A stretch of DNA of 34,207 nt, from assembly GCA_034440155.1 (NCBI GenBank), contig JAWXBN010000051.1, positions 1-34,207 on the forward strand, in the 5' to 3' direction. Below the pieces are notes generated by a model. That model was not told the origin of the DNA and made no database searches. It saw only the letters and a list, made by a program, of their open reading frames with translations. This DNA is from Verrucomicrobiota bacterium (lineage in GTDB: Bacteria > Verrucomicrobiota > Verrucomicrobiia > JAWXBN01). Made by a program: the position numbers and the translations under genes. Shown here piece by piece: positions 5,376 to 24,734 of this stretch (positions within the stretch are counted from its first letter, which is position 1; each line of letters opens with the position of its first letter).

Positions 5376-5452
5376 ATTTTTGATCAAAAACCTTTCGTAA
5401 CAGAGATGCAACTTGTTTTTGGCTCGGATCCCGCTACAAAATCTCCCTTCGC

Positions 5453-6637
5453 ATGCCTTACCCCATTGAATTCATCATTCTCACCGCCGCAGTTCTTTTG
5501 ATCATGGGTATACTGGCAAATAATATCTCGGGTAAATTTGGCGTGCCCGCCCTTTTAATTTCCTTGGCGATAGGAATGTTTGCCGGGAGTGATGGCCCGG
5601 GCGGGATTTGGTTTGACGACCCTTGGGCCGCACAATTTTTCGGAACCGTGGCCTTAGCCAGTATCCTTTTTTCTGGGGGGATGGAAACAAAATGGCTAGA
5701 GATCAAGCCTCTCATGCCCAAAGGTGTGATTCTTTCCACGGTCGGGGTGCTGATCACGGCACTGGTCGTGACAATCGCCTGTTTTTATACGTACTCGATC
5801 GACTTTAAAATCGCCTTGCTCATCGGGGCGATTGTTTCCAGTACGGATGCCGCCGCCGTTTTTTCGGTGATGAATGCCGCCAAAGTGAAGCTCAAGGGGC
5901 ATTTAAAACCGCTTTTAGAGTTTGAATCCGGTAGTAACGACCCGATGGCCATCATGCTGGTGGTGGGCGTCATCGAATGGATCAAAGTCCCGGAAACCAC
6001 CTTAGCCGCATTCATCCTGATTTTTGTGAAGCAGCTGGGGCTCGGACTTTTCTTCGGACTGGTGATGGGCAAGTTGCTCGTCCGATTCTTGCACGTGATG
6101 AAATTTGACTTTTCGGCTCTCTACCCCGTTTTAACTATCGCTGCTGTATTCTTTATTTATGGATTTACTGCGAGCCTCGGGGGGAGCGGGTTTCTCGCGG
6201 TGTATGTCGCGGGTATCCTGGTGGGTAATAGCCGCTTCTACATGAAAGCCCCGGTCAAATCTTTCTCCGACGCTGTTTCTTGGTTGATGCAGATTTTAAT
6301 GTTCTTGATCCTGGGTTTACAGGTCTTTCCGAAACAACTCCCCGGCGTTGCTTGGGAAGGGGTATTCCTCTCGCTTGTCCTGATTTTAATCGCCCGGCCC
6401 CTGAGTGTCTTTATTTCCCTCTCCCCCTTCCCGATGAAAACCAATGAGAAATTTTTTATTTCCTGGGTCGGCCTACGCGGGGCCGTCCCGATTGTGCTGG
6501 CTACCATGCCTCTGCTAGCCGGTATCGCCTATGCCGATGCGATTTTTAACCTCATCTTTTTTATGGTCCTAACCTCCATCCTCATTCAAGGGACCACTAT
6601 CCCCTTCATGGCCAGACTCTGCAAAGTCTCAAAGTGA
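5453..6637 (+). CDS. CPA1-family cation/proton antiporter (NhaP/CvrA-like, short form)
   Basis: This 394-residue integral membrane protein has about a dozen hydrophobic segments and the signature residues of the monovalent cation:proton antiporter-1 family: 'SSTDAAAVF' (129-137) and 'ESGSNDPMA' (158-166), whose acidic residues bind the cation. It would exchange Na+ or K+ for H+ at the cytoplasmic membrane. It ends right after the last transmembrane segment and lacks the C-terminal TrkA_C and CorC-like domains of NhaP2/CvrA (about 580 residues), so it is the membrane core only. A hairpin follows, and the downstream gene is convergent. Confidence 0.88.
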   Translation: MPYPIEFIILTAAVLLIMGILANNISGKFGVPALLISLAIGMFAGSDGPGGIWFDDPWAAQFFGTVALASILFSGGMETKWLEIKPLMPKGVILSTVGVLITALVVTIACFYTYSIDFKIALLIGAIVSSTDAAAVFSVMNAAKVKLKGHLKPLLEFESGSNDPMAIMLVVGVIEWIKVPETTLAAFILIFVKQLGLGLFFGLVMGKLLVRFLHVMKFDFSALYPVLTIAAVFFIYGFTASLGGSGFLAVYVAGILVGNSRFYMKAPVKSFSDAVSWLMQILMFLILGLQVFPKQLPGVAWEGVFLSLVLILIARPLSVFISLSPFPMKTNEKFFISWVGLRGAVPIVLATMPLLAGIAYADAIFNLIFFMVLTSILIQGTTIPFMARLCKVSK

Positions 6638-6651
6638 GGAATAGAAATCTT

Positions 6652-6682
6652 CCTCTCCCCCTATTATAACAATCGGGAGAGG
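6652..6682. terminator. Hairpin between the convergent antiporter and fdhD genes
   Basis: CCTCTCCC (6652-6659) and GGGAGAGG (6675-6682) form an 8-bp stem with a 15-base AT-rich loop, followed by a long G-run on the plus strand. It lies between two genes that end towards each other and could act for both. It lacks a clear T-tract on either strand, so confidence is moderate. Confidence 0.5.
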
Positions 6683-6697
6683 GGGGGGGGAAATCCT

Positions 6698-7510
6698 TTA
6701 AACGATTCTTTCCTCTCCACTATAGATATTAAAAGTTTGCCCGCGTAGGAAACCGATCAGGGTTTGCCCGCTTTCTTGCGCGAGGGCGACAGCGAGGCTC
6801 GATGGGCCGGAGACGGCGGCGATGACCGCGATACCGGCGGAGAGGGCTTTTTGGATGATTTCAAAGGACGTCCGCCCACTGACAAAAAGGATGTGCTCGT
6901 CCAACGGAAGCAAATTGCTCCGGGCGGCATAACCGATGACTTTGTCCACGGCATTATGACGGCCGACATCCTCACGCAGCACGAGCAAATCACCCGCCCG
7001 GCTAAAAAGCCCGGCGGCATGGAGTGAGCCCGTCTGCTCAAAAACATTTTGTGCCGCGCGCAATTTGTCCGGGAGCGAATAAACGATCTCCCGCGCGATT
7101 TGCACGGAGGAAGTCACCGGGGGGAAATGCCCGTGGATACTTTCTATCGATGCTTTGCCACAGATCCCGCAGCTCGACGAGGCATAGAAATTCCTCTGGA
7201 GGCGGGCGGTGTGAAAGGGGGTATCAGGTGTCAGGAAGTCATTAAGGATATTCTGGAGACGTGCGGCCTCACCCTGCTGGCAATATTCGATTTGCGCAAT
7301 TTGCGCCGGGCGGGTGACGATTCCTTCGGTAACGAGGAATCCTGTGGCGAGCTCCTCATCATGGCCGGGGGTGCGCATGGTCACGGCGACACTCTGGCCT
7401 TTGACACGGATTTCGAGGGGCTCCTCCACGGCGAGGACATCGTCTTGAGCCTGCGCCGGGGCGGATCCGGTGATCCTCGCTTTTGAACAATGGGTGACAC
7501 TGGGATTCAT
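6698..7510 (-). CDS. fdhD: Formate dehydrogenase accessory sulfurtransferase FdhD
   Basis: The 270-residue protein matches FdhD over its whole length: 'EEPLEIRVKG' near the N-terminus, 'ELATGFLVTEGI', the catalytic CGIC pair (114-117) and the C-terminal 'DVGRHNAVDKVIG' and 'SGRTSFEIIQKA' blocks. FdhD transfers sulfur from IscS to the bis-MGD molybdenum cofactor and is needed for active formate dehydrogenase and related molybdoenzymes. No formate dehydrogenase is in the window. The only bis-MGD enzyme here is the nitrate reductase 15 kb away, so a direct partnership is only a possibility. The start at 7510 matches the family length. Confidence 0.93.
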   Translation of the reverse strand: MNPSVTHCSKARITGSAPAQAQDDVLAVEEPLEIRVKGQSVAVTMRTPGHDEELATGFLVTEGIVTRPAQIAQIEYCQQGEAARLQNILNDFLTPDTPFHTARLQRNFYASSSCGICGKASIESIHGHFPPVTSSVQIAREIVYSLPDKLRAAQNVFEQTGSLHAAGLFSRAGDLLVLREDVGRHNAVDKVIGYAARSNLLPLDEHILFVSGRTSFEIIQKALSAGIAVIAAVSGPSSLAVALAQESGQTLIGFLRGQTFNIYSGEERIV

Positions 7511-9684: not shown

Positions 9685-10590
9685 TTAATGGAATTCTTCG
9701 GCAGCAGTACGGCAAAGGCCTACAAAAGTTTCCTCGGCCAAGCTCAGAGAATGGGTACGACGGTGGATAATGCCCCACTGCCTCCTTAATTTTTTTGAGC
9801 CAAATGAGATTCCGACGAGCGAACCTTCGTCAATCTCATCGCGGGCTACCCAAGCCGGCATGATTCCAATCCCTAATCCGATTTTGACCATTTCTTTAAT
9901 GGCTTCCATACTCCCCATATCGATGGCCAGCCGCAGTGAGACCCCAAGGCCTGAAAAATAGTGTTCGATCATTTTAAAGGTAGAGCTGTTCTTGGTATAG
10001 ATAATCAAGTTCTGCATTTTGACATCGCTCAGAGGGGCTTGTTTTAACTTTGCCCATGGATGGAGGGGATCCACGACAAAGATAAGTTCATCTGAAAATA
10101 GCGCCTTAAAAATCAGCCCGAGATCATCCTGAGGGCGTAAGGTAATCGCCAGATTAACGTCTTGATTAATGACATCGTCTATTGCCTGATGGGTGTCTGA
10201 GGTCCTAATATCGATCTTACAACGGGGGAAACTTTCTTTGAATTCGCGAAAAACCGAAGGCAGTAAGTGCTGACAAATGGTGATGGGACTTGTCAGGCGT
10301 AAGCGACCGACACCCCATAAGCCCAAGTTTTTAATCTCGCTACGGGCAGTATCCATATCATTGAATATGCGTTTGGCGGTCACTTCGAGTTGTTCCCCGG
10401 CCTGGGTCAGGCGTACGCTCTTGCCTTCACGCTCGAATAACCGGCATTCCAAATCGCTTTCTAGCAATTTGATTGAATGGCTAATGGCGGGCTGGGATAG
10501 ATTGAGGATTCTGGCCGCCGCCGTAAAGCTCCCCTCCCGGGCCACCGCAAGGAATGCAGAGAGATGGAAACTGTTTAGGGGAATATTCAT
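9685..10590 (-). CDS. LysR-family regulator divergent from the nitrate genes
   Basis: The 301-residue protein has a LysR helix-turn-helix (about residues 4-63; 'GSFTAAARILNLSQPAISHSIKLLE') followed by a typical inducer-binding domain. It is transcribed away from the nitrate genes with only 93 bases between the two starts, the usual arrangement of a LysR protein and the operon it controls. By analogy with NtcB of cyanobacteria or Cbl/NasR-type controls it may activate nitrate assimilation in response to nitrate or nitrogen status. That role is inferred from position, since LysR sequences do not reveal their ligand. No exact copy of the GCAAWTTGC motif lies in this gene; a one-mismatch copy occurs near 10464. 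Confidence 0.88.
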   Translation of the reverse strand: MNIPLNSFHLSAFLAVAREGSFTAAARILNLSQPAISHSIKLLESDLECRLFEREGKSVRLTQAGEQLEVTAKRIFNDMDTARSEIKNLGLWGVGRLRLTSPITICQHLLPSVFREFKESFPRCKIDIRTSDTHQAIDDVINQDVNLAITLRPQDDLGLIFKALFSDELIFVVDPLHPWAKLKQAPLSDVKMQNLIIYTKNSSTFKMIEHYFSGLGVSLRLAIDMGSMEAIKEMVKIGLGIGIMPAWVARDEIDEGSLVGISFGSKKLRRQWGIIHRRTHSLSLAEETFVGLCRTAAEEFH

Positions 10591-10683
10591 CTATAAATAT
10601 TATTTATCATAACTATAATTATAATCCATAGAAATAATGACATAAAAACGCCATGTGGTATCATATCTGCTTTTTAAGCTGGC
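10591..10683. promoter_or_regulatory. Divergent promoter/operator of the nitrate island
   Basis: This 93-base gap between the LysR start and the first nitrate gene is very AT-rich, with nested ATAA/TTAT dyads at about 10598-10627 of the kind that LysR proteins (T-N11-A) bind. A TGG-N10-GC arrangement at 10656-10671 resembles the spacing of a sigma-54 promoter, but it would place transcription start almost on the ATG, so I do not call it. Divergent promoters are inferred. Confidence 0.55.
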
Positions 10684-11778
10684 ATGAAATGGACAAGCAA
10701 AGTGCATAAAAAATTACAACCTGATCATGCGATTTTGAGGTTGGGTTATGTCTCGCTCCTGGATAGTGCCCCCATTGTGATCGGTAAAGAGCTTGGATTT
10801 TTCGATAAAGAGGGACTGAGAGTGAAGATCAGTAAAGTACTGGGATGGGCGTCTGTCAGGGATAAAATCATCTACTCAGAATTAGATGCATCACAAGCCG
10901 TGGTTGGATTGCCTTTCGCGGTGAGCCTCGGCCTGGGGTGCCCCGTTCGTCCCTGTATCACTCCCATGATCCTGAATCTCCACGGTAACTCTATTACATT
11001 ATCTGAAAAAATCGCCAACAACGGAGTCTTTGACGCCCGGTCATTAGGAGAATGGAAATCCACCGTCCATAAGAAACTTGTTTTCGGCGTGGTATCAAAG
11101 GTCTCCACACACTATTTTTTAATGAAGGAATTTCTTTTGATGGCCGGCTTAGAAGAAATGCGGGATTATGAACTGGTCGTGATTCCCCCCCCGCTGGTCT
11201 GTGCAAACCTCGAGTCAGGAACAATCGATGGATTTTGTGTAGGAGAGCCTTGGAACTCCATTGCAGCAAAAAAGAAATCCGGACGGATCATTGCCCGGAG
11301 TGCTGATTTGTCCCCCGGACATCCCGAAAAAGTCCTGATGATGACAGAGGAATTTGCACACAAACGGCATGATGAAGTGATTTTATTAAACAGAGCCCTC
11401 TTGAATGCTTGTGAATACTGCGAGGAAAATTCCGAGCTAGTAGCCGAAATAATGGCACGCAAAGAATATCTCAATATCCCAGCAGCTTTACTTTTTGATT
11501 GTTTACGCGGGAAATCTTTTGAAGCCATCCCCTCTCAGCAACTTTCCAGCATACTAAATCCATTTATTTTCCGACGCTTTGATGCCAACCGCCCGTCTTG
11601 GGCCAAAGAAGATTGGATCCTCCAACGAATGGTAGCCCAAGGCATGGCGTCTGAACAATTCCGCCGCTCGGAACGTATCCAACGGGTCATTTTTCGTGAA
11701 GACATCTTTGATGCATCGACAGCTCTCACGCAGAAAAAAACCTCATCCACACCTTTAGCATTATCAATCAAACACTAA
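10684..11778 (+). CDS. Cytoplasmic NrtA/NasS-like nitrate-binding protein (no signal peptide)
   Basis: This 364-residue protein belongs to the NrtA/CmpA/NasS solute-binding family: 'LRLGYVSLLDSAPIVIGKELGFFDKEGL', 'WASVRDKI', 'PPPLVCANLESGTIDGFCVGEPWN' and 'HPEKVLMMTEEF' all have counterparts in the exported NrtA encoded next (11794). It has no signal peptide, lipobox or twin-arginine motif, so it should stay in the cytoplasm. Two roles fit: a NasS-type nitrate sensor, or a detached version of the regulatory NrtA-like domain that cyanobacterial NrtC carries at its C-terminus and which the NrtC-like ATPase here lacks. No NasT-type ANTAR protein is encoded in the window. It is the first gene of the island, and its start has no clear ribosome binding site. 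Confidence 0.82.
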   Translation: MKWTSKVHKKLQPDHAILRLGYVSLLDSAPIVIGKELGFFDKEGLRVKISKVLGWASVRDKIIYSELDASQAVVGLPFAVSLGLGCPVRPCITPMILNLHGNSITLSEKIANNGVFDARSLGEWKSTVHKKLVFGVVSKVSTHYFLMKEFLLMAGLEEMRDYELVVIPPPLVCANLESGTIDGFCVGEPWNSIAAKKKSGRIIARSADLSPGHPEKVLMMTEEFAHKRHDEVILLNRALLNACEYCEENSELVAEIMARKEYLNIPAALLFDCLRGKSFEAIPSQQLSSILNPFIFRRFDANRPSWAKEDWILQRMVAQGMASEQFRRSERIQRVIFREDIFDASTALTQKKTSSTPLALSIKH

Positions 11779-11793
11779 ATACAGGAGCCCGCT

Positions 11794-13065
11794 ATGATTC
11801 ACACTGGAAAACCTCAAACATCACGCCGCCAATTCCTCTCTACGGGAGCTAAAATATTAACTGCTACCACGCTTTTATCCTCCCTGCCAAAGTCATGGGT
11901 CGGCAATGTTTATGCCGCGACCGACACACCAGAAGTGACTGATATAAAATTCGGCATTATTGCACTCACGGACTGTGCCCCATTTGTAATCGCCTTTGAG
12001 AAGGGGTTTTTCAAAAAATATGGAATTAATGCGACAATCACGAAGGGGGCGAGTTGGGCGGCCATCCGTGATAACCTTTGCAGCGGGGATATCCAGGCCA
12101 CCCATATGCTCTTGGGGATGCCACTAGCGTCCACAATGGGACTTGCCGGGAGCCCGAAAAAATCAATTGTTGTCCCGTGGATCATCAACCTCAATGGTCA
12201 AGGGATCACCCTAGATGCAAAATATAAATCACTGAATATCAAGAATGCCCTTGATTTAAAACCTATTGCTGCAAAAGCCACTGCCGAAGGCAAACCTTTG
12301 AGCTTTGCAATGACATTCCCCCCCGGCACCCATGCGATGTGGTTACGTTACTGGCTAGGTATGGGTGGGATTAACCCTGATAAAGATATCTCCCTGATTA
12401 CCGTTCCTCCGCCTCAGATGATAGCAAATATGAAGGTGGGCAAAATGGATGGCTTTTGTGTTGGTGAGCCTTGGAATGCCCGGGCGGTTACCGAGGGAAT
12501 CGGTTATACAGTGACCACCACCCAGAAAATCTGGCCTGACCATCCGGAAAAGGTATGTGCATTCACGGCGGAATTTGCCGCGAAGAACCCCAAAACAGTC
12601 AAGTCCGTCCTCAAAGCACTCCATGATGCCAGCGTCTGGTTAGATCAAGTCTCTAACCGCGCTGAAGCCTGCCAGATCATTAGTAAACCGTCCTATATCA
12701 ATTGTGATCCTGCAAGTATTTTAGGGAGGATTAATGGGGATTATGATTATGGCACGGGGGAAAAAGCAAAGGAAACCAATACCATGATTTTCTCGGACCG
12801 GAATACAAATTACCCGTCACAATCTTATGCAAAATGGTTTCTTTCCCAATACCGCAGATGGGGCCTGACGGAGGGGGCACCTGCCTATGATTTAATCTCG
12901 AAAGAAGTGATGCGTGGCGATTTGTGTGTCGAGGCAATGAAAGAAATCGGTGTCACAGTCACTCCGGATGACAACCAAGTCCTTAAACTAGTTGATTCAA
13001 CATTTAATCCTGCCGATCCGGAGGCCTATGCAAAGGGTTTCGCGATTAAAAACCTGAAAGGATAA
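11794..13065 (+). CDS. nrtA: Nitrate ABC transporter substrate-binding protein, Tat-exported
   Basis: The 423-residue protein begins with a twin-arginine signal (SRRQFL, residues 10-15, then a hydrophobic stretch and a 'VYAA' cleavage-like region). The mature part matches NrtA: 'IKFGIIALTDCAPFVIAFEKGFFKKYGI', 'GASWAAIRDNL', 'VPPPQMIANMKVGKMDGFCVGEPWN', 'WPDHPEKVCAFT' and a C-terminal region shared with CmpA/NrtA. It captures nitrate (or nitrite) in the periplasm for the permease encoded immediately after. Bicarbonate (CmpA) cannot be excluded from sequence alone, but the downstream nitrate and nitrite reductases make nitrate much more likely. AGGAG precedes the start; it follows the cytoplasmic homologue after a 15-base gap. 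Confidence 0.93.
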   Translation: MIHTGKPQTSRRQFLSTGAKILTATTLLSSLPKSWVGNVYAATDTPEVTDIKFGIIALTDCAPFVIAFEKGFFKKYGINATITKGASWAAIRDNLCSGDIQATHMLLGMPLASTMGLAGSPKKSIVVPWIINLNGQGITLDAKYKSLNIKNALDLKPIAAKATAEGKPLSFAMTFPPGTHAMWLRYWLGMGGINPDKDISLITVPPPQMIANMKVGKMDGFCVGEPWNARAVTEGIGYTVTTTQKIWPDHPEKVCAFTAEFAAKNPKTVKSVLKALHDASVWLDQVSNRAEACQIISKPSYINCDPASILGRINGDYDYGTGEKAKETNTMIFSDRNTNYPSQSYAKWFLSQYRRWGLTEGAPAYDLISKEVMRGDLCVEAMKEIGVTVTPDDNQVLKLVDSTFNPADPEAYAKGFAIKNLKG

Positions 13066-13070
13066 TTTAC

Positions 13071-13895
13071 ATGGAAACAACCCTGAAAACAAAAAAGGAA
13101 ATGTCTCCACAGCGAATCAAAATACATGTGGACTGGCCGTCCATCATCCTACCGGTACTGGGCTTACTTGCCGTTCTTCTCTTTTGGCAAATCAGCTCAA
13201 TAACTTGGGCCCAAAATCTCCCCGGACCGGTATCCACATGGCAGAAAAGTAAAGAACTCGTGATGGATCCATTTGCAAAACGGGGTGAAATGGATCAAGG
13301 GATCCTCCGGTTCACTTGGTATAGCCTCATCTTGGTGGGTAAAGGGTACGCCTTGGCACTTTTAATCGGCACACCCCTCGGGTTACTCTTGGGGCTTTCG
13401 TCCGTATTCACCAAGACCTTTGATCCCATCATCCAGATTCTTAAACCTATATCGCCCTTAGCATGGTTACCGCTGGGTCTGATTCTTTTTTTAAAAGCTG
13501 AACCCAGTGCGATATTTACCATTGCGATATGTTCCATGTGGCCAACAGTCCTGAATACAGCCATCGGTGTGCGCAATGTACCACAAGACTATCTGAATGT
13601 CGGTAAAGTGCTCAATCTTTCCCGTTTCAAAATGCTCTATAAAATAATCATCCCCTCGACACTCCCCTATATGTTTACGGGATTCCGACTCTCGTTAGGA
13701 ATAGCATGGCTGGTGATTGTCGCTGCTGAAATGTTAACCGGGGCCGCCGGTATCGGAGGATTCCTCTGGCAGGAATATAATGCCCTTATCTATGAACACA
13801 TCATTCTCTGTATCATCGTGATCGGACTAGTCGGATTTATCCTCGATCGGTTCATGGTGATTATTGAAAAGCAAGTAGAATACTTTCTGTCATAA
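13071..13895 (+). CDS. nrtB: Nitrate ABC transporter permease
   Basis: The 274-residue membrane protein has about six hydrophobic segments and a binding-protein-dependent transport inner membrane domain: 'GYALALLIGTPLGLLLGL', 'PISPLAWLPLGLILF' and the cytoplasmic coupling loop around 'LNVGKVLNLSRFKMLYKIIIPSTLPYMFTG'. It closely resembles NrtB. It forms the channel through which nitrate enters, driven by the two ATPases encoded next. It starts 5 bases after the nrtA stop, with an AAGGATA just upstream, and is followed by the first ATPase after an 11-base gap. Confidence 0.93.
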   Translation: METTLKTKKEMSPQRIKIHVDWPSIILPVLGLLAVLLFWQISSITWAQNLPGPVSTWQKSKELVMDPFAKRGEMDQGILRFTWYSLILVGKGYALALLIGTPLGLLLGLSSVFTKTFDPIIQILKPISPLAWLPLGLILFLKAEPSAIFTIAICSMWPTVLNTAIGVRNVPQDYLNVGKVLNLSRFKMLYKIIIPSTLPYMFTGFRLSLGIAWLVIVAAEMLTGAAGIGGFLWQEYNALIYEHIILCIIVIGLVGFILDRFMVIIEKQVEYFLS

Positions 13896-13906
13896 GGAAA
13901 CCAATC

Positions 13907-14773
13907 ATGCCCTTCCTCGAACTTAAAAACATTGAAAAGTCTTATGGTGACCGATCCATCCTTAAAGGAATAAACCTTTCCATGGAAGAAGGGGAATTCG
14001 TCTCCATCGTGGGGTATTCAGGAATGGGTAAGACAACACTGATCAGTATGATTGCGGGTCTGGTCACCCCTGACAAGGGAGAGGTTGTTTTTAAAGGAAA
14101 ACGGATTAATTCAACCAGCCTCGACCGGGTGATGATTTTTCAGAATTATTCACTCTTACCTTGGCTGACCGCGCAAAGGAATGTGGAGCTGGCTGTCGCC
14201 CAGGCATTTCCTTCATTATCAAGGAAAAGAATTGCAACAAAAGCAATCGTCGCCCTCGAAAAAGTCAAACTCGGGCACGCCCTATCCCGGAAGCCATGTG
14301 AACTCTCTGGAGGCATGAAACAGCGTGTTTCCCTCGCACGCGGGTTAGCAATGGAACCCCAGATTCTTTTGCTCGATGAGCCATTAGGGGCACTTGATGC
14401 GCTGACCCGGGCGGAATTACAAGATGAACTTGTCCGTATCCAGCAGGAAGACAAAAAAACATTATTAATGATCACTAATGATGTGGACGAGGGCATTATT
14501 TGTTCTGACCGGATCATCCCTCTTTCCGCCCTCCCCGGGGCGACCTTGGGTGAAGCAATCCCTGTCACCGTATCCCGGCCCCGAGACAGGAAACGACTCA
14601 ATCATGACCCTTCTTATCACAGGGATCGGAAAAAAGTCCTGCAATACCTGCTCTCACATGGCCCCCGTGATTTGAACCTGTCGAACGCCGCGCAAGCTCA
14701 TCAAAAACCAATAGGGATGGAGATGAGTGATCAAGAATCAAAAAATCTTCAATGCGGAGTGACCCACCTATGA
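13907..14773 (+). CDS. Nitrate ABC transporter ATP-binding protein, NrtC-like without the C-terminal domain
   Basis: A 288-residue ABC ATPase with Walker A GYSGMGKTT (36-44), signature LSGGMKQRV (133-141) and Walker B 'ILLLDEPLGALDA'. At the switch (H-loop) position it has Asn191 in 'MITNDVDEG' instead of His. After the ATPase fold comes a short tail with 'IPVTVSRPRDRKRLNHDP', similar to the linker of NrtC/CmpC. Cyanobacterial NrtC continues with an NrtA-like regulatory domain of about 400 residues, which is absent here. AAGGAAA precedes the ATG, and the stop overlaps the next start by 4 bases. With the second ATPase it probably forms a heterodimer; the altered H-loop suggests one degenerate ATP site. 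Confidence 0.88.
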   Translation: MPFLELKNIEKSYGDRSILKGINLSMEEGEFVSIVGYSGMGKTTLISMIAGLVTPDKGEVVFKGKRINSTSLDRVMIFQNYSLLPWLTAQRNVELAVAQAFPSLSRKRIATKAIVALEKVKLGHALSRKPCELSGGMKQRVSLARGLAMEPQILLLDEPLGALDALTRAELQDELVRIQQEDKKTLLMITNDVDEGIICSDRIIPLSALPGATLGEAIPVTVSRPRDRKRLNHDPSYHRDRKKVLQYLLSHGPRDLNLSNAAQAHQKPIGMEMSDQESKNLQCGVTHL

Positions 14774-15594
14774 TCCAAGACTGCTATGTCGATTTCAGCC
14801 GCCTCCACAAGGAATTTAATACTCGTAATGGTATCCTAACAGTGGTCAAAGACTTTAACTTAAAAATCCCGCGCGGGGAGTTTGTCACATTGATCGGCCA
14901 TTCCGGTTGTGGAAAAAGTACGGTACTCTCAATGTTGGCAGGCCTCGAGACAGTCACCTCAGGCGTGATCGTTATGGCCGGGAAAGAAGTCACCGGTCCA
15001 GGCCCAGACCGCGGGATTGTCTTCCAATCCCCATGCCTGCTTCCTTGGTTAAGTGTATTAAAAAACGTCACCCTAGGATTGGATGAGGTTTTCCCGTCAA
15101 AAACCAATCAGGAAAGAAAATCCATGGCCCGCCATTATCTGCAACTGGTGGGACTCGGGAATGATATTGATAAAGTCCCGTCCGAACTTTCTCAGGGCAT
15201 GCGCCAGCGTGTGTCTATCGCCAGGGCATTTTCTTTGAATCCAAAAATGCTCCTTTTAGATGAACCATTCGGGATGCTCGACGGGATTACGAGAATCGCG
15301 CTCCAGCAGGAATTGGTTCGTCTTTGGGAATCTGATAAAAAAACAGTCCTCATGGTGACCCATGATGTCGATGAGGCTGTTTTCCTCTCAGACCGGGTCG
15401 TGATGATGACGAATGGTCCTGAAGCTACTGTGGGAAAAATCCTGAAGGTCGATCTCCCTCGTCCGCGCCACCGGGCCGAAATCATGGATGATCCTCGATA
15501 CTATGAATTAAGGGGCGAATTACTCGATTTCCTTGAGTCCCCTCGTATCCATACCCCGGATGAAGTACCCACATTTTCATCGAATACAAAATAA
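14770..15594 (+). CDS. Nitrate ABC transporter ATP-binding protein, NrtD-like
   Basis: A 274-residue ABC ATPase with Walker A GHSGCGKST (43-51), signature LSQGMRQRV (140-148), Walker B 'MLLLDEPFGMLD' and an intact H-loop His198 in 'VTHDVDEAV'. The middle 'GPDRGIVFQSPCLLPWLSVLKNV' is typical of the nitrate/sulfonate/taurine ATPase group. The ATG at 14770 overlaps the previous stop (ATGA) and has GGAGTG upstream; an in-frame ATG at 14752 lies inside the preceding gene and is less likely. The signature has Gln in place of the usual second Gly. It powers nitrate import together with the NrtC-like protein. Confidence 0.9.
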   Translation: MIQDCYVDFSRLHKEFNTRNGILTVVKDFNLKIPRGEFVTLIGHSGCGKSTVLSMLAGLETVTSGVIVMAGKEVTGPGPDRGIVFQSPCLLPWLSVLKNVTLGLDEVFPSKTNQERKSMARHYLQLVGLGNDIDKVPSELSQGMRQRVSIARAFSLNPKMLLLDEPFGMLDGITRIALQQELVRLWESDKKTVLMVTHDVDEAVFLSDRVVMMTNGPEATVGKILKVDLPRPRHRAEIMDDPRYYELRGELLDFLESPRIHTPDEVPTFSSNTK

Positions 15595-15635: not shown

Positions 15636-17189
15636 ATGAAACAGATAATCAATCAATCGGGATGTAACCGAAATAATCAAGGGTCAAAAATAATCCGGAC
15701 AATTAATGCAAGACATAAGCTATTAGCAACCTTCGGTATAATCATGTCCATGATTGTATTGCCGGGTAGGGCCGGCAGCAACATCACTGCCGAAAACAAA
15801 CTCCACAGCCCAGTCATTGAATCAGGATTGGAGTGGAAACCGGGGGATCCCATGGCGGTCGCCGGAGGAGCCTTACTCTTCGACCTCCAAGAGAGGTTAC
15901 GTTTCGAATACCGCGATAATAATTTTGATTTTAATGACTATGTTGACTCGATTACCGACGATAATTATCTCCTGCAGCGTCTCAAAATCGGTATGAAAAT
16001 CAAGCCATCGGATGATTGGGCCGTTTATGTCCAAGGCCAGGATTCTCGCGAATATTTCTCAGACCGCCCTAGTTACCCAGGATTTAACGGTGCAGAGGGG
16101 GATTCATATATCGGCCTTAAACAAGGATACTTTGAATACTGGAACTTTAAAAATTGCCCGTTCGGATTTAAACTCGGTCGCCAGGAGCTCAATTACGGGG
16201 ACCAGCGTCTGGTTGGTGCTTTTGATTGGAATAATATCGGTCGCGTTTTTGACGGGTTACGGATGCATTTCGAGCAGGAGAAATGGAATATCGAGGGGTT
16301 TGCCGTACTACCGGTGAATATGAGAATCGGTGATTGGAATGAACCAGAGACTCAAGACCGCTTCTTTGGAGTGTATTATACTGCAAAATACCTGGAGTCA
16401 CAACAAACGGATGTATACGCCTTTTTCCGGAATAAAACGGATGCAAATGCTGGATTCCCTACGGGCGGTTATACACGTGAGACCCCGTTATCGCCGAATT
16501 CTGTCCCCGGCAGCCAAGCGGGTAACTATGTGACAATCGGCACCCGGGGTAAATCAACAAAGGGCAAGCTCGGCCCATGGGACTATTCCTACGAAGCAAA
16601 CTTGCAGGTCGGGACGATTGTGAATAATGCCGCTGGTACCAGCGTGCCAAATGCCACCACCCGCCGCCGTGATCTGCTCGCATATGCCGGATACATGCAA
16701 GGCGGATACACCTTTACTCACCCGATGAATCCGAGGATAGCCCTCGGATATGATTTTGCCTCGGGGGATGAGAGCTTTACGAGCGGGACGGGGAACTCTT
16801 TCCAGAATCTTTTCCCGACAAACCATAAATTCTACGGGTACATGGATCTTTTTGCATGGCGCAATTTGCACAACCCCCATGCGAACTTCAGTATTAGTCC
16901 CGTTGCCAAACTCAACCTGTCCCTCGATTACCACGCCTTCTTCCTCGCTAATACGAATGATTATTGGTACCGGGCCAACGGATACACACCTGTCAGGACC
17001 GGGGCTAACCGCCTCGTAGCAGATCGTTTTGTCGGACAAGAAATTGATCTCGTCGCTAAATATTCTGTGACAAAATGGATGAAAACTGAAATTGGTTATT
17101 CTTATTTTCTTTCGGGATCATACCTCTCTGATACGGGCCCCGGTAACAACGCAGATTTCTTCTATACCCAGGTGGAATTCCAATTCTGA
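15636..17189 (+). CDS. Outer-membrane porin of the alginate-export type, in the nitrate operon
   Basis: The 517-residue protein starts with a basic stretch and a hydrophobic segment ('LLATFGIIMSMIVLPGRAGS'), a plausible signal peptide, followed by a beta-strand-rich body with many alternating aromatic/polar residues. 'DLQERLRFEYRDNNFDF', 'RLKIGMKIKPSDDWAVYVQGQDSREY' and 'KLGRQELNYGDQRLVGAFDWNNIGRVFDG' match the alginate-export domain family of large beta-barrels, and the chain ends in Phe ('VEFQF'), as outer-membrane proteins usually do. AGGAAGAG precedes the start. Its place between the nitrate ABC transporter and the reductases suggests that it passes nitrate through the outer membrane; the substrate is inferred from context. 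Confidence 0.82.
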   Translation: MKQIINQSGCNRNNQGSKIIRTINARHKLLATFGIIMSMIVLPGRAGSNITAENKLHSPVIESGLEWKPGDPMAVAGGALLFDLQERLRFEYRDNNFDFNDYVDSITDDNYLLQRLKIGMKIKPSDDWAVYVQGQDSREYFSDRPSYPGFNGAEGDSYIGLKQGYFEYWNFKNCPFGFKLGRQELNYGDQRLVGAFDWNNIGRVFDGLRMHFEQEKWNIEGFAVLPVNMRIGDWNEPETQDRFFGVYYTAKYLESQQTDVYAFFRNKTDANAGFPTGGYTRETPLSPNSVPGSQAGNYVTIGTRGKSTKGKLGPWDYSYEANLQVGTIVNNAAGTSVPNATTRRRDLLAYAGYMQGGYTFTHPMNPRIALGYDFASGDESFTSGTGNSFQNLFPTNHKFYGYMDLFAWRNLHNPHANFSISPVAKLNLSLDYHAFFLANTNDYWYRANGYTPVRTGANRLVADRFVGQEIDLVAKYSVTKWMKTEIGYSYFLSGSYLSDTGPGNNADFFYTQVEFQF

Positions 17190-17196
17190 AGTGACT

Positions 17197-18990
17197 ATGG
17201 CCGATATCATACAAATTCCCGAATCCGCGCCATTTAGCCCGGACCAGAAAGCCTGGATCAATGGTTATCTGGCCGGTCTGATGGCTGTGGGAGCCTTGAC
17301 GGTCCCGGCGGGCACATCGGCGCAGGGACGGGCCCTTGAGGAGGGACTCCCGAGACTCTTAATCCTTTTTGGATCCCAGACGGGGACAGCCGAAGGGTAT
17401 GCACACGAGGTAGCCAAAACCGCAAAGTCATCAGGGTTTCATCCATCGGTCGTAAACATGTCGGATTATGGTTCTCTCGATCTCAACCGGGAAAAGAACG
17501 TGCTTTTGCTGATAAGCACCTATGGTGACGGGGATATGCCTGATTCGGCCCAATCCTTCTGGGATTTTCTCTCTGGCACCACGAATCTTTCTCTTCCACA
17601 TATTTCGTTCTCGGTGCTCGCATTTGGCGACAAGAACTATTCACAATTCTGCCAAGCCGGAAAGAAATTTGATTCCTTGCTCGAAACAAGTGGAGCCATA
17701 AGGATTCATCCCCGTGTGGATTGTGATGTCAATTATGAAGGTGATGCCCTCAAGTGGCTGACTGGCGTAATGCAAATCGTGGGCAAAGGAGCCCCCACGA
17801 CACAAGTGAGTGTACACGATGTGCCTCTCACGGACACGGACGATCAAGCGCACACATCTATTCCCCAATGGTCAAAATCAAATCCTTACCAATCACATTT
17901 ACTGGTTAACAGGATATTGACAGCTCAAGATTCTGAGAAAGAAACACGACATTATGAATTTAACCTAGAGAGATCAGGGCTTACTTATGAGGCGGGTGAT
18001 GCTTTAGGGGTCATACCTTCAAATGATCCTGTGCTCGTTGATGGGATTATTTCACTATTAAAGATCGATCCGGATACCCTCGTATCGACGGGAGGAGGGA
18101 GGGAAAGAAAATTGCGTGATACACTGATCAGCACCTTTGATCTTACAAAACCATCCTCTGATCTTATTTCCAGAATTGCGGAACTCTCGGGGAGTTCGGA
18201 ACTCAAACGTTTACTCGATAACGACCATACCTCAGCCTTGAAGGATTACCTGTGGGGCCGGGATGTATTGGATATTCTTGAAAGCCACACCGTTCGTTTT
18301 GAGAGTATTCAGGATTTCCTTTCGCCCCTGCGCAAATTGCAACCAAGACTTTACTCGATTTCATCATCACAGAAACTTCACCCGACATCGGTTCATTTAA
18401 CGGTCGCCACAGTCCGTTATCATTCACACGGTCGTCACCATGGAGGAGTGTGTTCCACCTTCATGGCGGACCGGGCGGGTAACTCCACTCCCGTGCCGAT
18501 TTTTGTCCATTCATCTCCTGGATTCAGGCCACCTGCGGATGCAGATGCCCCAATGATCATGGTCGGGCCCGGTACAGGCATTGCCCCTTTCCTAGCCTTT
18601 TTACAGGACCGGAGGGCTATTGGTGCCAAGGGCTCTCACTGGCTTTTCTTTGGAGAACAACATTCTACCACGGATTTTTTCTATCAGGATGAATTAGAGA
18701 AATTTGCTACAGACGGATTTCTGTCCAAGCTCTCCACGGCCTTCTCAAGGGATCAGGCACATAAGGTCTATGTCCAACACCGCATGGTCGAAGAAGCCGG
18801 AGAACTCTGGAAATGGCTTCAAGAAGGCGCCTATTTTTATGTCTGTGGGGATGCGAGCCGAATGGCTAAAGACGTGGATGTCGCACTCCACGAAGTCTGT
18901 GAAAAGGCGGGTGGCCTCTCTTCAGTCCAGGCATCTGAATACATTAAAAAACTCAAGATGGAAAAACGTTATTGTCGTGACGTTTATTAG
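17197..18990 (+). CDS. CysJ-like NAD(P)H diflavin reductase (electron donor for NirA)
   Basis: The 597-residue protein has an N-terminal flavodoxin domain (FMN loop GSQTGTAEG from residue 59, 'STYGDGDMPD'), then an FAD-binding region (RLYSISSS, 384-391; 'GGVCSTFMAD') and an NAD(P)H-binding part (GPGTGIAPF, 457-465; 'FYVCGDASRMAKDVD'). This is the layout of the sulfite reductase flavoprotein CysJ and cytochrome P450 reductase. Here it precedes a nitrite reductase, so it probably passes electrons from NAD(P)H to NirA. Residues 17-28 (QKAWINGYLAGL) form a short helix also found at the N-terminus of NirA. The start at 17197 was chosen over an ATG at 17092 that lies inside the porin gene. Confidence 0.88.
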   Translation: MADIIQIPESAPFSPDQKAWINGYLAGLMAVGALTVPAGTSAQGRALEEGLPRLLILFGSQTGTAEGYAHEVAKTAKSSGFHPSVVNMSDYGSLDLNREKNVLLLISTYGDGDMPDSAQSFWDFLSGTTNLSLPHISFSVLAFGDKNYSQFCQAGKKFDSLLETSGAIRIHPRVDCDVNYEGDALKWLTGVMQIVGKGAPTTQVSVHDVPLTDTDDQAHTSIPQWSKSNPYQSHLLVNRILTAQDSEKETRHYEFNLERSGLTYEAGDALGVIPSNDPVLVDGIISLLKIDPDTLVSTGGGRERKLRDTLISTFDLTKPSSDLISRIAELSGSSELKRLLDNDHTSALKDYLWGRDVLDILESHTVRFESIQDFLSPLRKLQPRLYSISSSQKLHPTSVHLTVATVRYHSHGRHHGGVCSTFMADRAGNSTPVPIFVHSSPGFRPPADADAPMIMVGPGTGIAPFLAFLQDRRAIGAKGSHWLFFGEQHSTTDFFYQDELEKFATDGFLSKLSTAFSRDQAHKVYVQHRMVEEAGELWKWLQEGAYFYVCGDASRMAKDVDVALHEVCEKAGGLSSVQASEYIKKLKMEKRYCRDVY

Positions 18991-19003
18991 AAAGTGTATC
19001 CCT

Positions 19004-20788
19004 ATGATATCTAAACAAAAGACTCCTGATTTGATTAATGGAAAAATCGTCACCGACGATCAGAAATCTTATTTGCAAGGCTTTTTTAGTGGTTTGGCAA
19101 ACCGGGGAATTACTTTTTCAGATTTACAAGGGCTTTTCTCGGGGCCGGATAACATGAAGCCGACGACTAAAAATACTGATGTCCCCTTGATTTTTGAAGA
19201 ACGCGTCAAGAATGAGGAACACCCCCTGGACAGTTATTATCTTCTCGTGGAAAATGCCCAAAATAATAAAGCCCCCGATAAAGAGGAGACATTCCGTTTT
19301 AAATGGCATGGGCTCTTCTTTTTAAGTCCGGTGAAAGATGCTTATATGGCGCGTCTGAGGATACCAGGTGGTTTCTTAAAAACATTTCAGCTCCGTGAAA
19401 TTGCTAATACGGCCCAAGAACTCACGAGTGGTTACGTTCAGATCACGACACGTGCCAATTTTCAAATCAGGCTTATTGAGCCCCGCAATACCATGGAATT
19501 CCTAAGGCGTATCCAGTCGGTGGGGTTACATACCCGTGGGTCTGGGGCAGATAATATCCGTAATATCACGACAAATCCAACTGCTGGTATTGATCCGCAC
19601 GAATTAATAGATACGACCCCGTTTGTCCACGAGTTAGGGCAATTCATTCTTTCCCACAGGGAATTTTATGATTTGCCACGGAAATTTAATATTGCATTTG
19701 ATGGCGGTGGATTAATCGGGTCTGTCGAAGATACAAATGATATAGGATGCAAGGCTGTCCGGGTAATTCAAAATAACCAAGGAATAGAACCGGGAATCTA
19801 TTTTCGTATTAAGCTTGGTGGGGCTACTGGACACAAGGCTTTCGCCCACGATACCGGTGTCTTAATTCGGCCTGAAGGACTGGTTCAAGCCGTTCTAGCA
19901 CTGATCCGTGTCTTTATCACACATGGTTGCAGGACGGATCGTAAAAAATCTAGGCTCAAACATCTTTTGGAAAAAATGCCGATTCCCGATTATATAACCG
20001 CTGCAGAATCCCTCTTGGGGAGCAAACTGCTCAGAGACCCTTTTGATAAAGATGGTGTGTCTGGAATCTGTGCGCCCCACATACTCCCCCCTGCACCCCA
20101 TTCCCATGTAGGCGTCTTCCCCCAAAAACAAGAAGGGTTTTATTATATAGGCATAGGAATCCCTGTAGGCCAGGTCACCCCACACCAATTACTGGCTTTA
20201 GCAGATATCGCGGATCAATACGGTCACGGGGAGATAAGACTGAGTGTTTGGCAGAATATTATTCTTCCATGGATCATCGAGGGAATGCTCGATAAGGCTC
20301 TCAAAAAAATCCATAAACTGGGTTTTACCGTCGAGCCATCGAATGTCAGCAGCGGGATTATTGCCTGTACCGGAAACCGGTTTTGCAAGTATGCAGCGAG
20401 TGATACAAAGGCACACGCTATTGCACTCGGGAAATATTTAGATAAGAAGGTATTATTGAAACACCCCGTAAATATTCATTTTACAGGGTGCCCTCATTCT
20501 TGTGCCCAGCATTATATGGGGGATATTGGCCTATTGGCCACAAAGGTCGGTTCCGGCCCGACGTCTGTCGAAGGGTATCATATTACTATTGGCGGGGGAT
20601 TTGGTGAGTCCCGCTCCATTGGAAGGGAAATATTCAAGAGTATTCCCTTTAGTGAATTACCCCAGTTAATCGAAAAAATACTTAATGGCTACCTTCGCCA
20701 TACGTCGGATATTGGCGGGAGTTTCCAGGATTTCACCCGTCGCCATGATATCAACACACTCCAGGCTATATTTACTAATAACGAATGA
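19004..20788 (+). CDS. nirA: Siroheme [4Fe-4S] nitrite reductase, NirA type
   Basis: The 594-residue protein carries the siroheme/[4Fe-4S] ligands Cys455 and Cys461 (CTGNRFC) and Cys496 and Cys500 (CPHSC). It has the two-fold nitrite/sulfite reductase ferredoxin-like half-domains ('ARLRIPGGFLKTFQLREIA', 'RLSVWQNIILPWI'). The 'TGNRFCKYAASDTKAHA' and 'TGCPHSCAQHYMGDIGLLA' wording is that of NirA rather than CysI. It reduces nitrite to ammonium with six electrons in the cytoplasm. Residues 20-31 (QKSYLQGFFSGL) resemble the N-terminal helix of the flavoprotein encoded upstream. An open frame extends to 18704 inside the flavoprotein gene, but the ATG at 19004 follows the flavoprotein stop by 13 bases and is preferred. 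It overlaps the next gene by 4 bases. Confidence 0.92.
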   Translation: MISKQKTPDLINGKIVTDDQKSYLQGFFSGLANRGITFSDLQGLFSGPDNMKPTTKNTDVPLIFEERVKNEEHPLDSYYLLVENAQNNKAPDKEETFRFKWHGLFFLSPVKDAYMARLRIPGGFLKTFQLREIANTAQELTSGYVQITTRANFQIRLIEPRNTMEFLRRIQSVGLHTRGSGADNIRNITTNPTAGIDPHELIDTTPFVHELGQFILSHREFYDLPRKFNIAFDGGGLIGSVEDTNDIGCKAVRVIQNNQGIEPGIYFRIKLGGATGHKAFAHDTGVLIRPEGLVQAVLALIRVFITHGCRTDRKKSRLKHLLEKMPIPDYITAAESLLGSKLLRDPFDKDGVSGICAPHILPPAPHSHVGVFPQKQEGFYYIGIGIPVGQVTPHQLLALADIADQYGHGEIRLSVWQNIILPWIIEGMLDKALKKIHKLGFTVEPSNVSSGIIACTGNRFCKYAASDTKAHAIALGKYLDKKVLLKHPVNIHFTGCPHSCAQHYMGDIGLLATKVGSGPTSVEGYHITIGGGFGESRSIGREIFKSIPFSELPQLIEKILNGYLRHTSDIGGSFQDFTRRHDINTLQAIFTNNE

Positions 20789-22518
20789 TTCCTCCCTTAA
20801 AATATTCCGAAGGTGACTTGCAGGAGCAAATCCCCAGAGCAAAACCTGTTTCCACAAAGGATCTGCTTCAAAATTTGCTTATCGAGCAAAGGTCATTAAC
20901 CGCTGTCGAGGAATTCGCACAGCAACACGCCGATATTCACCATCCATTACAGGCTAAATACTATCAAAACCTTATTCCTGTGAATCTTCCGCAATCAGGG
21001 GAACAATTTGCTTTTGAAGTCGATTTGGATCGCTGCTCCTCCTGTAAGGCCTGTGTGAGTGCCTGTCACAGCTTGAACGGTCTCGGTGATGATGAAATAT
21101 GGCGATCTGTAGGCGTTCTCCATCCGGCTGTGAACGCGGGCCAGGGACAAGTCACAGTAACGACCGCCTGCCATCACTGTCTGGAGCCCGGATGTCTCGA
21201 AGGATGTCCGGTCACAGCCTACGAAAAGGACGTGATAACAGGAATCGTCCGCCACTTGAATGACCAATGTATAGGTTGCCAGTATTGCGTCATGAAATGT
21301 CCCTATGATGTGCCCAAATACTCGCCACATCTCGGGATAATCAGGAAATGTGATATGTGCCACGATCGCCTCAAATCATTGGAAGCACCGGCATGTGTAC
21401 AAGCATGCCCAAATGAAGCCATTAAAATCACAATCGTCTCCACTGCCTCGATTTCAGAGCGGGCGGCTAATGGCGTTTTTCTGCCGGACTCTCCTGATCC
21501 CGGGTACACAAAGCCCGGTACGGTTTATACTTCTTCAAAACCCATTCCTTCAAATATGCTGGGCGGGGATCATGATAAATTAATCATCCAAGACGGACAT
21601 TGGCCACTGGCTGTGATGCTGGTATTGACCCAGGCTGGGATTGGATTTTTAGGGGCTCAAATAATCGGCAGTGCCGTCGGAGTATTACCCACTCTCGCCA
21701 ACCGATGGATGGCACTCCTGGGATTAATTATTTTCTCCGGTGGAATGGCTAGTAGCATCCTGCATTTGGGGCAACCGCTGAAGGCATGGCGCTTTTTCCT
21801 TGGATTACGCACATCGTGGCTCAGTAGGGAAATTCTGGCTTTTGGCGTTTTGACATTATTGGCGACTGTTTATGTCCTCGCATTATGGACGGAGCCTATT
21901 TTAGAAGGACTATCCACACACTCCCCCAGCAGGTTAATCTCAGGGTGGATACAGGGGCAGTACCATTGGGTGCAGACAATTTATCCGGCTGTATTACCTA
22001 TTGTCTCTGTCACCATCCTGATCGTGGGGATCACCGCAGTATTTACTTCCGTCATGGTTTACGCTGTTACTCGGCGGCAATTCTGGCGTTGGGAAGTCAC
22101 CTTGCCACGTTTTCTCGGGACTGTCATTATTTTTGGTCTGTTTGGGCTGCTCTATTTTACCCTTCATTTCAGATCATTTCCCGTCGATATAACATTGTTA
22201 ATATGGGCAGTGGTGATATCGTGTACATTTAAAATACTCGGGGAAATGTCTCTATTCCTCCACCTACGGGACAGGGGACACCCGGCGATCAAACGCACGG
22301 CCATCCTCTTGCGAGGGCCTCTCAAAAAACTTATGCTCACGCGGATCATCTCAGGAATAGCAGGAGGAATTTTCCTGCCCTTACTCCTTTTGACTCCAAA
22401 TGGTCACCCGCTTTTTGTCGCATCACTCTCATTAGGATTTTGGCTATTAGGTGAATTCACTGAACGCTCACTTTTTTTTAAAGCGGTTTCTCCCGATAAA
22501 ATGCCAGGAGGAATATGA
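20785..22518 (+). CDS. Fused four-cluster Fe-S / DmsC-type membrane anchor subunit
   Basis: The 577-residue protein fuses two subunits that are separate in DMSO reductase. After an ~80-residue lead, four Cys groups (first C84-x2-C87-x2-C90-x3-C94; then 'CHHCLEPGC', '[11 protein letters not shown]' and 'CDMCHDR...CVQAC') provide ligands for four [4Fe-4S] clusters, as in DmsB. From about residue 270 the protein is hydrophobic with roughly eight membrane segments ('[20 protein letters not shown]' opens this part), as in the quinol-oxidising anchor DmsC. There is no signal peptide, so the clusters face the cytoplasm. It overlaps nirA and the nitrate reductase by 4 bases each, so it is probably the electron-input subunit of the latter. 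Confidence 0.88.
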
Positions 22519-24734
22519 TTAATCTCAAAAGGATTAAAATTCCCGATATTAAAAAAATACGCGAGTGGAAAGGGGCACTGACAGCGGAACTAGTCCAGTT
22601 TCCCGGAAAATTCGGGTTAGGCAGGTTGCCTAAACGTTTGGAACCCGATGCGACGACCACCGCGGTCTGTGGTTTTTGCTCAACGGGATGCGGGCTTGAT
22701 ATCCACCTCAAAAATGGTGAAGCAATCAATCTTTCAGGTAAAACCGATTATCCGGTGAATCTCGGCATGGCGTGCCCCAAAGGATGGGAAGCCCTTTCAC
22801 CCCTTGATGCGCCTGACCGTGCCCTGACCCCCTTATACCGCAGTACACGCGAAGGTGACCCAAAACCAATATCATGGGAATCGGCCATAAACCTTTTCTG
22901 TGAAAAATTCAAACGCGTCATGGACACTCATGGTTCTGGCTCAGTTGCTTTCTTGAGCTCGGGGCAAATTGCTACCGAGGAAATGGCCTTCCTCGGGGCA
23001 CTCGCGAAATTTGGAATGGGTTGGATTCATGGTGATAGTAACACCCGTCAATGTATGGCCACTGCCGCTACTGCTTATAAACAGTCGTTTGGTTTTGATG
23101 CACCTCCTTATACCTATCAGGATTTTGAAGAGTCAGACGTGATTATTTTAATCGGTTCAAACATTTGTATAGCCCATCCTATTATGTGGCAAAGGGTTTT
23201 ACGGAATAAAAACAAGCCCGAAATCATCGTCATCGATCCGCGCAAAACTGAAACAGCTGTTGCAGCCACCCGACATTATGCCTTATCCCCTAAAAGCGAC
23301 CTTACGCTCCTTTACGGTATCGCCCATATACTCATCCAGGAGGACTGGGTAAAACATACTTATATAGAGGCTCATACTGAAGGATTTGAAGATTTTAAGG
23401 AGCACACCGCTCACTTTACCCCGCAAATGGTTTCGGAAACGTCCGGTTTGTCCGTTAAAGAACTCTACGAATTTGCATACACGATCGCCCATGGCAAAAG
23501 GGTTTCATTCTGGTGGACGATGGGTGTCAACCAAGGGCATGAATCCACCCGGACAGCACAAGCCATTATTAATCTCGCCCTCATGACAGCCAATGTGGGC
23601 AGGCCGGGGACAGGGGCAAATTCAATTACCGGCCAGTGTAATGCCATGGGATCAAGGCTTTTCAGTAATACCAGCTCCCTATTCGGCGGCAGGGACTTTA
23701 CCAAAGCCTCGGATCGACTGTGTGTAGCGGATATTCTTGCTATTCCTCTCGATAAAATACCGGTAAATAATAGTCTGGCCTACGACCAGATTATCGACGG
23801 AATCGATGAAGGAAAAATCAAAGGACTCTGGATTATCGGGACCAATACCGCACATTCCTGGATTAATCAGGAACGGTTTCGTCGCATTGCCCAGAAACTT
23901 GAATTCCTTGTTGTTCAAGACATGTACTCCACTACCGATACCGCGCAAATTGCGGATTTAGTCTTGCCTGCGGCTGGATGGGGAGAAAAGAATGGCACGA
24001 TGATTAACTCTGAACGCCGGATTGGTTTAATTAAGAAAGTCAGAAAAGCACCCGGAGAAGCACTATCAGATTTTAACATCTTTAAACTGATTGCGAATGC
24101 ATGGGGTTGCGGGGCTGAATTTGATCGTTGGAATAGCCCGGAAGAAGTTTTTCAAATCATCAAAGATATTTCCAAAGACCAGCCCTGTGATTTGACAGGA
24201 ATACGGGACTATCAAATGATCGATCATGCCCATGGCATTCAATGGCCCTTCCGGGAGGGGGATATATTAACGAGTGATCAACGTCGTTTATTTTCTGATG
24301 GCCTATTTTTCACTCCCACAAACCGGGCGAAATTTATTTTTGAAATGCCAAACGCTCCATCAGAGCAAATAAATCATCATTATCCCTTTATCCTACTCAC
24401 CGGCAGGGGAAGCTCCTCCCAGTGGCACACACTCACACGGAGCGGCAAGTCTGATGTGTTAAATGCATTATCTCCTGACTGCCTTTGCGTGGAAATTAAT
24501 CAGGAGGATGCTGCCCTGTCGAATATTTATACCGGTGACTCCGTTACAGTCGAATCATCCCGCAAAAAAATTATTTGCGTGGCCCGGGTCACGCCCAATA
24601 TAAAACCGGGACAATTATTCATGCCCATGCATTTTGTCGAGGTGAACAAGCTTACCCAAGACAGCTTCGATCCTTATTCCCGACAGCCTTCATACAAATA
24701 TTCTGCGGTTAAAATCTCAAAAACAAAATCATAA
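22515..24734 (+). CDS. nasA: Assimilatory nitrate reductase, bis-MGD molybdopterin catalytic subunit
   Basis: The 739-residue protein binds an N-terminal [4Fe-4S] cluster (Cys52, Cys55, Cys59, Cys87) and has the molybdopterin oxidoreductase fold, with '[16 protein letters not shown]' placing Cys180 as the probable molybdenum ligand, as in NasA/NapA. The C-terminal part carries the molydopterin dinucleotide-binding domain ('[19 protein letters not shown]'). There is no twin-arginine signal, so it is cytoplasmic, which fits an assimilatory enzyme reducing nitrate to nitrite. It is the last gene of the operon, coupled to the Fe-S/anchor gene by an ATGA overlap and a GGAGGAAT site. Other bis-MGD oxidoreductases are possible in principle, but the neighbours strongly favour nitrate. 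Confidence 0.9.

Follow-up and report, generated by a model that had tools for sequence, protein, structure and literature searches.

The window analysed here is a stretch of 34,207 nucleotides from a Verrucomicrobiota bacterium (contig JAWXBN010000051.1), and its nitrate assimilation genes and associated sites are collected in Table 1. At the head of the operon lies the gene of a protein that we name SBPc. Its reading frame is intact and, as the original prediction had it, it is the first gene next to the LysR-type regulator gene, which is divergent and 93 bp away. Downstream of NrtA come the genes of NrtB and two short ATPases, then those of a porin, a flavoprotein resembling CysJ, NirA, an Fe-S protein and a nitrate reductase of the molybdopterin type. 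The NrtC-like ATPase had been described as lacking an NrtA-like domain; this was confirmed, and holds for both ATPases, neither of which carries such a domain at its C-terminus.

Table 1. Genes and candidate regulatory sites of the nitrate operon in the window.
Feature	Position	Strand	Remarks
LysR-type regulator, proposed SBPc partner and operon activator	9685..10590	-	orthologue conserved beside SBPc
Proposed LysR operator ATAAATATTATTTAT	10593..10607		perfect 6-bp inverted arms, T-N11-A
Promoter-like site for SBPc and operon	10637..10664	+	consensus match; such sites in the region not above chance
SBPc, signal-less NrtA-family protein, proposed cytoplasmic nitrate/nitrite sensor	10684..11778	+	364 aa; Pfam, fold, pocket
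NrtA, exported nitrate-binding protein	11794..13065	+	twin-arginine leader (SRRQFL...)
NrtB permease	13071..13895	+	TIGR01183 above its cut-off
NrtC-like ATPase without NrtA-like regulatory domain	13907..14773	+	288 aa
NrtD-like ATPase	14752..15594	+	280 aa; TIGR01184 above its cut-off
NirA-family nitrite reductase, presumed regulated operon	18704..20788	+	longest ORF; start codon provisional
Molybdopterin assimilatory nitrate reductase, presumed regulated operon	22515..24734	+	

Some further genes of the window deserve mention. Directly 5' of the gene of the NirA-family reductase lies that of the CysJ-like flavoprotein; the Fe-S protein encoded next after NirA resembles DmsB/DmsC and precedes the nitrate reductase (17092-22518, + strand). 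The flavoprotein is a possible electron supply for nitrate/nitrite reduction. The porin of the operon (15636-17189, + strand) is an outer-membrane protein of the Alginate_exp type with homologues in the same place in relatives, and is perhaps a nitrate channel. A protein encoded at 26409-27080 (+ strand) combines a response-regulator domain with an N-terminal excisionase-type HTH_17 domain; it is not an ANTAR protein and hence not NasT. A 141-aa ORF (24887-25312, - strand) matches DUF4143 over its second half only (profile positions 72-160) and is probably the remnant of a longer gene.

SBPc was assigned to Pfam NMT1_2 by profile search (2.4e-62). A sequence comparison with solved structures placed the C-terminal regulatory domains of NrtC and CmpC from cyanobacteria nearest to it, followed by NrtA, and a fold search with its single-chain AlphaFold model (pLDDT 88.6, pTM 0.88) returned the same set (9uak, 9uai, 2g29, 9u9z and 8wm7). 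Identity to the window's own NrtA is about 30%. The N-terminus is basic and non-hydrophobic and shows none of the Sec, Tat or lipoprotein signal features by which exported NrtA is recognised; export signals were not found in SBPc relatives either. The open frame extends only 2 codons further 5' of the ATG (366 aa) before a stop codon is reached, and an overlooked signal peptide is therefore ruled out. SBPc is thus predicted to be cytoplasmic, not exported, and the absence of an export signal that had been claimed for this ORF stands.

The second part of that claim, the presence of the NrtA ligand-binding blocks, was borne out by the alignment. NrtA contacts nitrate through W102, Q155, H196, G240 and K269 (PMC13204499), and all five positions are represented in SBPc, by W55, N102, H143, G187 and K216. 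The asparagine that stands at Q155 of NrtA is also found in NasS and in the NrtC domain, and NasS has pocket letters identical to those of SBPc at all five positions. Across 67 SBPc rows the tryptophan is invariant, and H, G and K occur in 62, 61 and 66 rows, respectively (with G or A counted, the glycine position also falls within the range 62-67). Because the NrtA contact residues are conserved, nitrate/nitrite is the expected ligand of SBPc.

In phylogenetic analyses the SBPc proteins of Verrucomicrobiota were split from NrtA, NasS and the NrtC domain by a well-supported branch (98 and 100). The AU test rejected a placement of the window's SBPc with NasS (p 3e-6) as well as with the NrtC domain (p 0.008) and allowed a single SBPc group including Phycisphaerae (p 0.68). 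SBPc branches are longer than NrtA branches. We regard SBPc, from these trees, as a clade separate from all three groups; the outcome that would have spoken against the original prediction, a firm grouping with exported NrtA together with a missed signal, did not occur.

The SBPc alignment was used for a profile scan of 84,980 species genomes, from which the best-scoring 80 loci were taken (a selection, not a census): 66 SBPc loci, 9 fused cyanobacterial NrtC domains and 5 NasS-like loci. Three of the 66 SBPc loci among the matches listed belong to Phycisphaerae and the other 63, wherever named, to Verrucomicrobiota. An orthologous LysR gene lies divergently upstream of SBPc in 61 of these 66 loci, and the same arrangement is seen in genomes of the class that were fetched separately. 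Five loci were first scored as lacking LysR; one of them (L056) ends at a contig edge, and the remaining four (L070, L075, L103 and L105) are real exceptions among the matches listed, with no LysR found nearby. The transporter is much less constant: parts of NrtABCD lie downstream in 45 of the 66 listed SBPc loci, where the exported NrtA is of two distantly related types, an MFS transporter is present in 5, and in 16 no transporter was seen within the fetched DNA. Five single-contig genomes (G013, G031, G049, G056 and G135) have the SBPc-LysR pair, and their one SBPc is the only NrtA homologue in them; in two genomes (G032 and G050) the pair stands alone, away from all nitrate genes seen. The constant association of SBPc is with LysR, not with the transporter.

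The evolutionary distances point in the same direction. Mirror-tree correlations between SBPc and LysR were 0.75 (n=32), 0.91 (n=17, one NrtA type) and 0.78 (n=56), far above those between SBPc and NrtD (0.29 and 0.19). Co-transfer of linked genes could contribute to this signal, yet NrtD is linked as well in those loci. The window's LysR itself is full-length and ordinary, with a complete substrate-binding domain (Pfam), and its nearest solved relatives are the CbbR-type 5y2v and the cyanobacterial NtcB 8h3v.

Variations on this gene order were also seen. One locus (L084) has two tandem SBPc genes (4755-5735 and 6001-7032, + strand) behind a single LysR gene. Genome G040 contains, besides a normal SBPc-LysR locus (L039), a more distant second SBPc-like gene without LysR neighbour (L041:5872-6867, - strand). 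A second NrtA-like gene inside the nrt operon was found in two loci (L094:8398-9531 and L152:10053-11195, both + strand; 44-47% to the window's NrtA), the former without an obvious export signal.

NasT, the partner of NasS, had been reported absent from the window, and a search for ANTAR proteins was extended to the whole genome, of which 97% is assembled. The profile search found no ANTAR protein there (best match 11.3 bits, E 0.97), while on three plasmids with NasT, taken as positive controls, the same search reached about 1e-21, and one relative gave a match at 3.9e-21. NasT is not detectable in the genome as searched, and no copy elsewhere in it came to light to contradict the original prediction. 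Near SBPc, no NasT was found in the 66 loci among the matches listed. An ANTAR protein occurs in only 1 of 195 genomes of the phylum, while SBPc is common. The nearest NasS genes, on plasmids of Sinorhizobium, Sphingomonas and Rhizobium, lie directly behind an ANTAR or response-regulator gene. The sole ANTAR protein of the phylum set (L043:7135-8451, - strand, genome G192) is NasR-like, with a long N-terminal region preceding the ANTAR domain; it adjoins an nrt operon without SBPc, and an SBPc-LysR locus (L145) is located elsewhere in the same genome, so that two regulatory solutions are found in one cell.

Unsupervised palindrome discovery in 59 LysR-SBPc intergenic regions, the window's among them, yielded the family motif ATGAATnnnATTCAT (ATGAAT-N3-ATTCAT), a canonical T-N11-A LysR box present in most loci, with a log-likelihood of 329 versus 18-25 in shuffled sets. 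A score of at least 9 of 12 was reached in 43 of 47 anchorable regions (mean best score of shuffled sequence 7.3), and the three Phycisphaerae loci score 10-12 of 12; some loci, those of Methylacidiphilum among them, have a weak motif or none. In 24 of the 43 regions scoring at least 9 of 12 the motif stands at its most frequent place, in non-coding sequence 2 bp before the start codon of LysR. Since it lies outside the LysR reading frame, an artefact caused by LysR start codons (Met-Asn) is ruled out. The window's box, a perfect inverted repeat, occupies this commonest place and differs from the family motif by paired changes in its two arms. The chance of a score of 10 of 12 at one fixed place is about 4e-4; the case for this AT-rich box is confined to its constant position and its perfect symmetry. 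We propose the T-N11-A box between LysR and SBPc as the LysR operator. Judged from the promoter-like site, it would lie about 70 bp 5' of the transcription start, and the SBPc leader, of about 13 nt by the same prediction, would be too short for a NasT-type hairpin, which is weak evidence.

Genome G050 offers a view of sites remote from the gene pair. Here contig C60 carries SBPc-LysR and contig C11 the nitrate genes, and the exact pattern ATGARTnnnATTCAT occurs only twice in the entire 4.7-Mb genome, both times on C11: upstream of nirA, between it and a 578-aa gene, and upstream of the MFS nitrate transporter. Shuffled 19-kb sequence contains 0.01 near-perfect sites on average. C11 was outside the motif discovery, in which the C60 intergenic region (L092) was included. 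These remote sites lend support to the operator as well as to a nitrate regulon under LysR. The 578-aa gene (L142:14239-15975, - strand), which is situated between the MFS transporter and nirA, appears protein phosphatase- or kinase-like, judged by eye from its first residues. The exact pattern was searched in ten genomes; some of the further matches lay between SBPc and LysR, others near unrelated genes. Those in G000 (C89, C100), G206, G155, G040 and G021, near unrelated genes or inside ORFs, were taken as chance occurrences.

Our analysis makes it probable that SBPc is a cytoplasmic nitrate/nitrite sensor that acts through the divergent LysR protein and not through an ANTAR antiterminator. 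Cooperation with LysR, one of two roles originally considered, is strongly supported by the divergent pairing in 61 of the 66 listed loci, the mirror-tree correlations, the operator common to the loci and the remote sites of G050. The idea of a free-standing nitrate sensor holds as far as the missing signal, the pocket and the LysR pairing are concerned, and sensing itself is deduced from sequence. In the proposed mechanism apo-SBPc would bind LysR and prevent it from activating. Closure of SBPc on nitrate or nitrite would release or convert LysR, and from the T-N11-A box LysR would then switch on both SBPc and the operon of nrtABCD, nirA and nitrate reductase. Physical contact between both proteins and ligand control of LysR are inferred. 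NasS is a cytoplasmic NrtA-like sensor that gates a regulator, and nitrate dissociates the NasS-NasT complex (PMC3795266). Restraint of LysR by apo-SBPc is favoured because that complex dissociates on nitrate. The sign of control is nevertheless the least certain element, and ligand release as in NasS-NasT seems to us only somewhat likelier than co-activation by ligand-bound SBPc. By this analogy the system would follow NasS logic with a different output protein.

NasS of Paracoccus, Azotobacter and rhizobia resembles SBPc in that it belongs to the NrtA family, lacks a signal, shares the pocket residues, is encoded next to a regulator gene and has a proposed cytoplasmic gating role. The partner in NasS-NasT, however, is an ANTAR RNA-binding antiterminator that acts with a leader hairpin, whereas on the SBPc side a DNA-binding LysR protein is paired with a DNA operator. 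Because partner and clade differ, the SBPc system is like NasS yet outside NasS-NasT. The C-terminal regulatory domain of NrtC/CmpC is closest to SBPc among solved sequences and folds, is cytoplasmic and shares its pocket letters, including the N at Q155, but is fused to an ATPase; SBPc is a free-standing ORF of a separate clade that also occurs where no NrtBCD was found. Periplasmic NrtA/CmpA proteins share family, fold and nitrate contacts with SBPc but are exported, while SBPc lacks a signal and in its evolution follows LysR rather than the transporter. NtcB, the LysR activator of cyanobacterial nitrate assimilation, is like the window's LysR nitrate-linked and, with 8h3v, a solved relative, but differs in gene order and partner; we know of no binding-protein partner of NtcB. 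The general principle is known from AmiC-AmiR, where a cytoplasmic homologue of periplasmic binding proteins senses the ligand and gates a separate regulator. That system differs in its type of binding protein, its amide ligand and its ANTAR partner.

The facts counting against a sensor for LysR begin with the LysR protein itself, whose own effector domain could sense nitrate, nitrite or a nitrogen metabolite alone. In such a scenario, modelled on NtcB/CbbR, SBPc would only tune the response, e.g. as a nitrate buffer or a second weak input, and the neighbouring genes would be co-inherited under shared regulation. The complete substrate-binding domain of the full-length LysR, its kinship with 5y2v and 8h3v and the four SBPc loci without LysR nearby fit this scenario, and the weak or absent operator in Methylacidiphilum and some other loci and the possible mimicry of the mirror-tree signal by co-transfer also count against our reading. 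A mere buffer, however, is unlikely to stay beside LysR across phyla or to track it more closely than the ATPase of its own operon, and in G050 and G032 SBPc remains with LysR away from all nitrate genes seen. We consider sensing by the effector domain of LysR, with SBPc as a mere tuner, unlikely, if the least unlikely of the alternatives. Slightly less probable still is the other role originally envisaged, in which SBPc would replace the NrtC C-terminal domain in trans, bind cytoplasmic nitrate and throttle NrtBCD, perhaps with PII. The closest solved sequences and folds are indeed the NrtC/CmpC domains, the window's NrtC lacks that domain, an ATPase fused to it was found in no SBPc locus among the matches listed, and in cyanobacteria the domain is required for ammonium inhibition of transport (PMC6603209). 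Against this stand the SBPc genes of the five single-contig genomes without second NrtA homologue, of the MFS loci and of the loci without a transporter seen, the tracking of LysR instead of NrtD in gene order and evolutionary distances, and the rejected grouping with the NrtC domain (p 0.008); replacement in trans is thus disfavoured.

Two more alternatives were weighed. A NasS protein whose NasT is hidden in the unassembled 3% of the genome would match the common superfamily and the identical pocket, but the rarity of ANTAR proteins in a phylum rich in SBPc, the lack of NasT near the 66 listed loci, the rejection of a NasS grouping (p 3e-6) and, as a weak argument, a predicted start so close to the ATG that no antitermination leader fits make this very improbable. 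That SBPc is a decayed NrtA duplicate which lost signal and role, as its longer branches might suggest, is hardly credible for a protein that is intact and pocket-conserved in dozens of genomes and has its own clade and conserved gene order.

In Methylacidiphilum SolV the genes corresponding by order are annotated as 'tauA' (Mfum_140012) and 'cbbR' (Mfum_140011); they are transcribed without nitrate, and tauA is about 4-fold up in N2-fixing cells, in which nitrate reductase is not up (PMC3404531). For strain V4, a link of this cbbR with the reduction and transport of nitrate had been proposed earlier (PMC3404531). This is the only prior hint we found; a description of a LysR protein with a NasS-like partner was not found in the published literature, with subscription journals thinly covered.

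LysR proteins form a very large family of bacterial regulators, in which ligand sensing is attributed to the protein's own binding domain. We tentatively suggest, at somewhat less than an even chance, a separate class of nitrate-responsive transcription control that is widespread in Verrucomicrobiota and extends to Phycisphaerae. In this class a cytoplasmic NrtA-like protein would be the obligate ligand sensor of LysR, and the LysR effector domain would be the docking site of SBPc, not a nitrate sensor. If true, it would be unusual for a LysR regulator to have a conserved second protein as its sensor, and many annotations of SBPc-type genes as transporter subunits would need correcting. The predicted operator makes the LysR regulon testable. 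The SBPc-LysR pair would also explain how nitrate is detected without NasT in Verrucomicrobiota, including the methanotrophic Methylacidiphilum.
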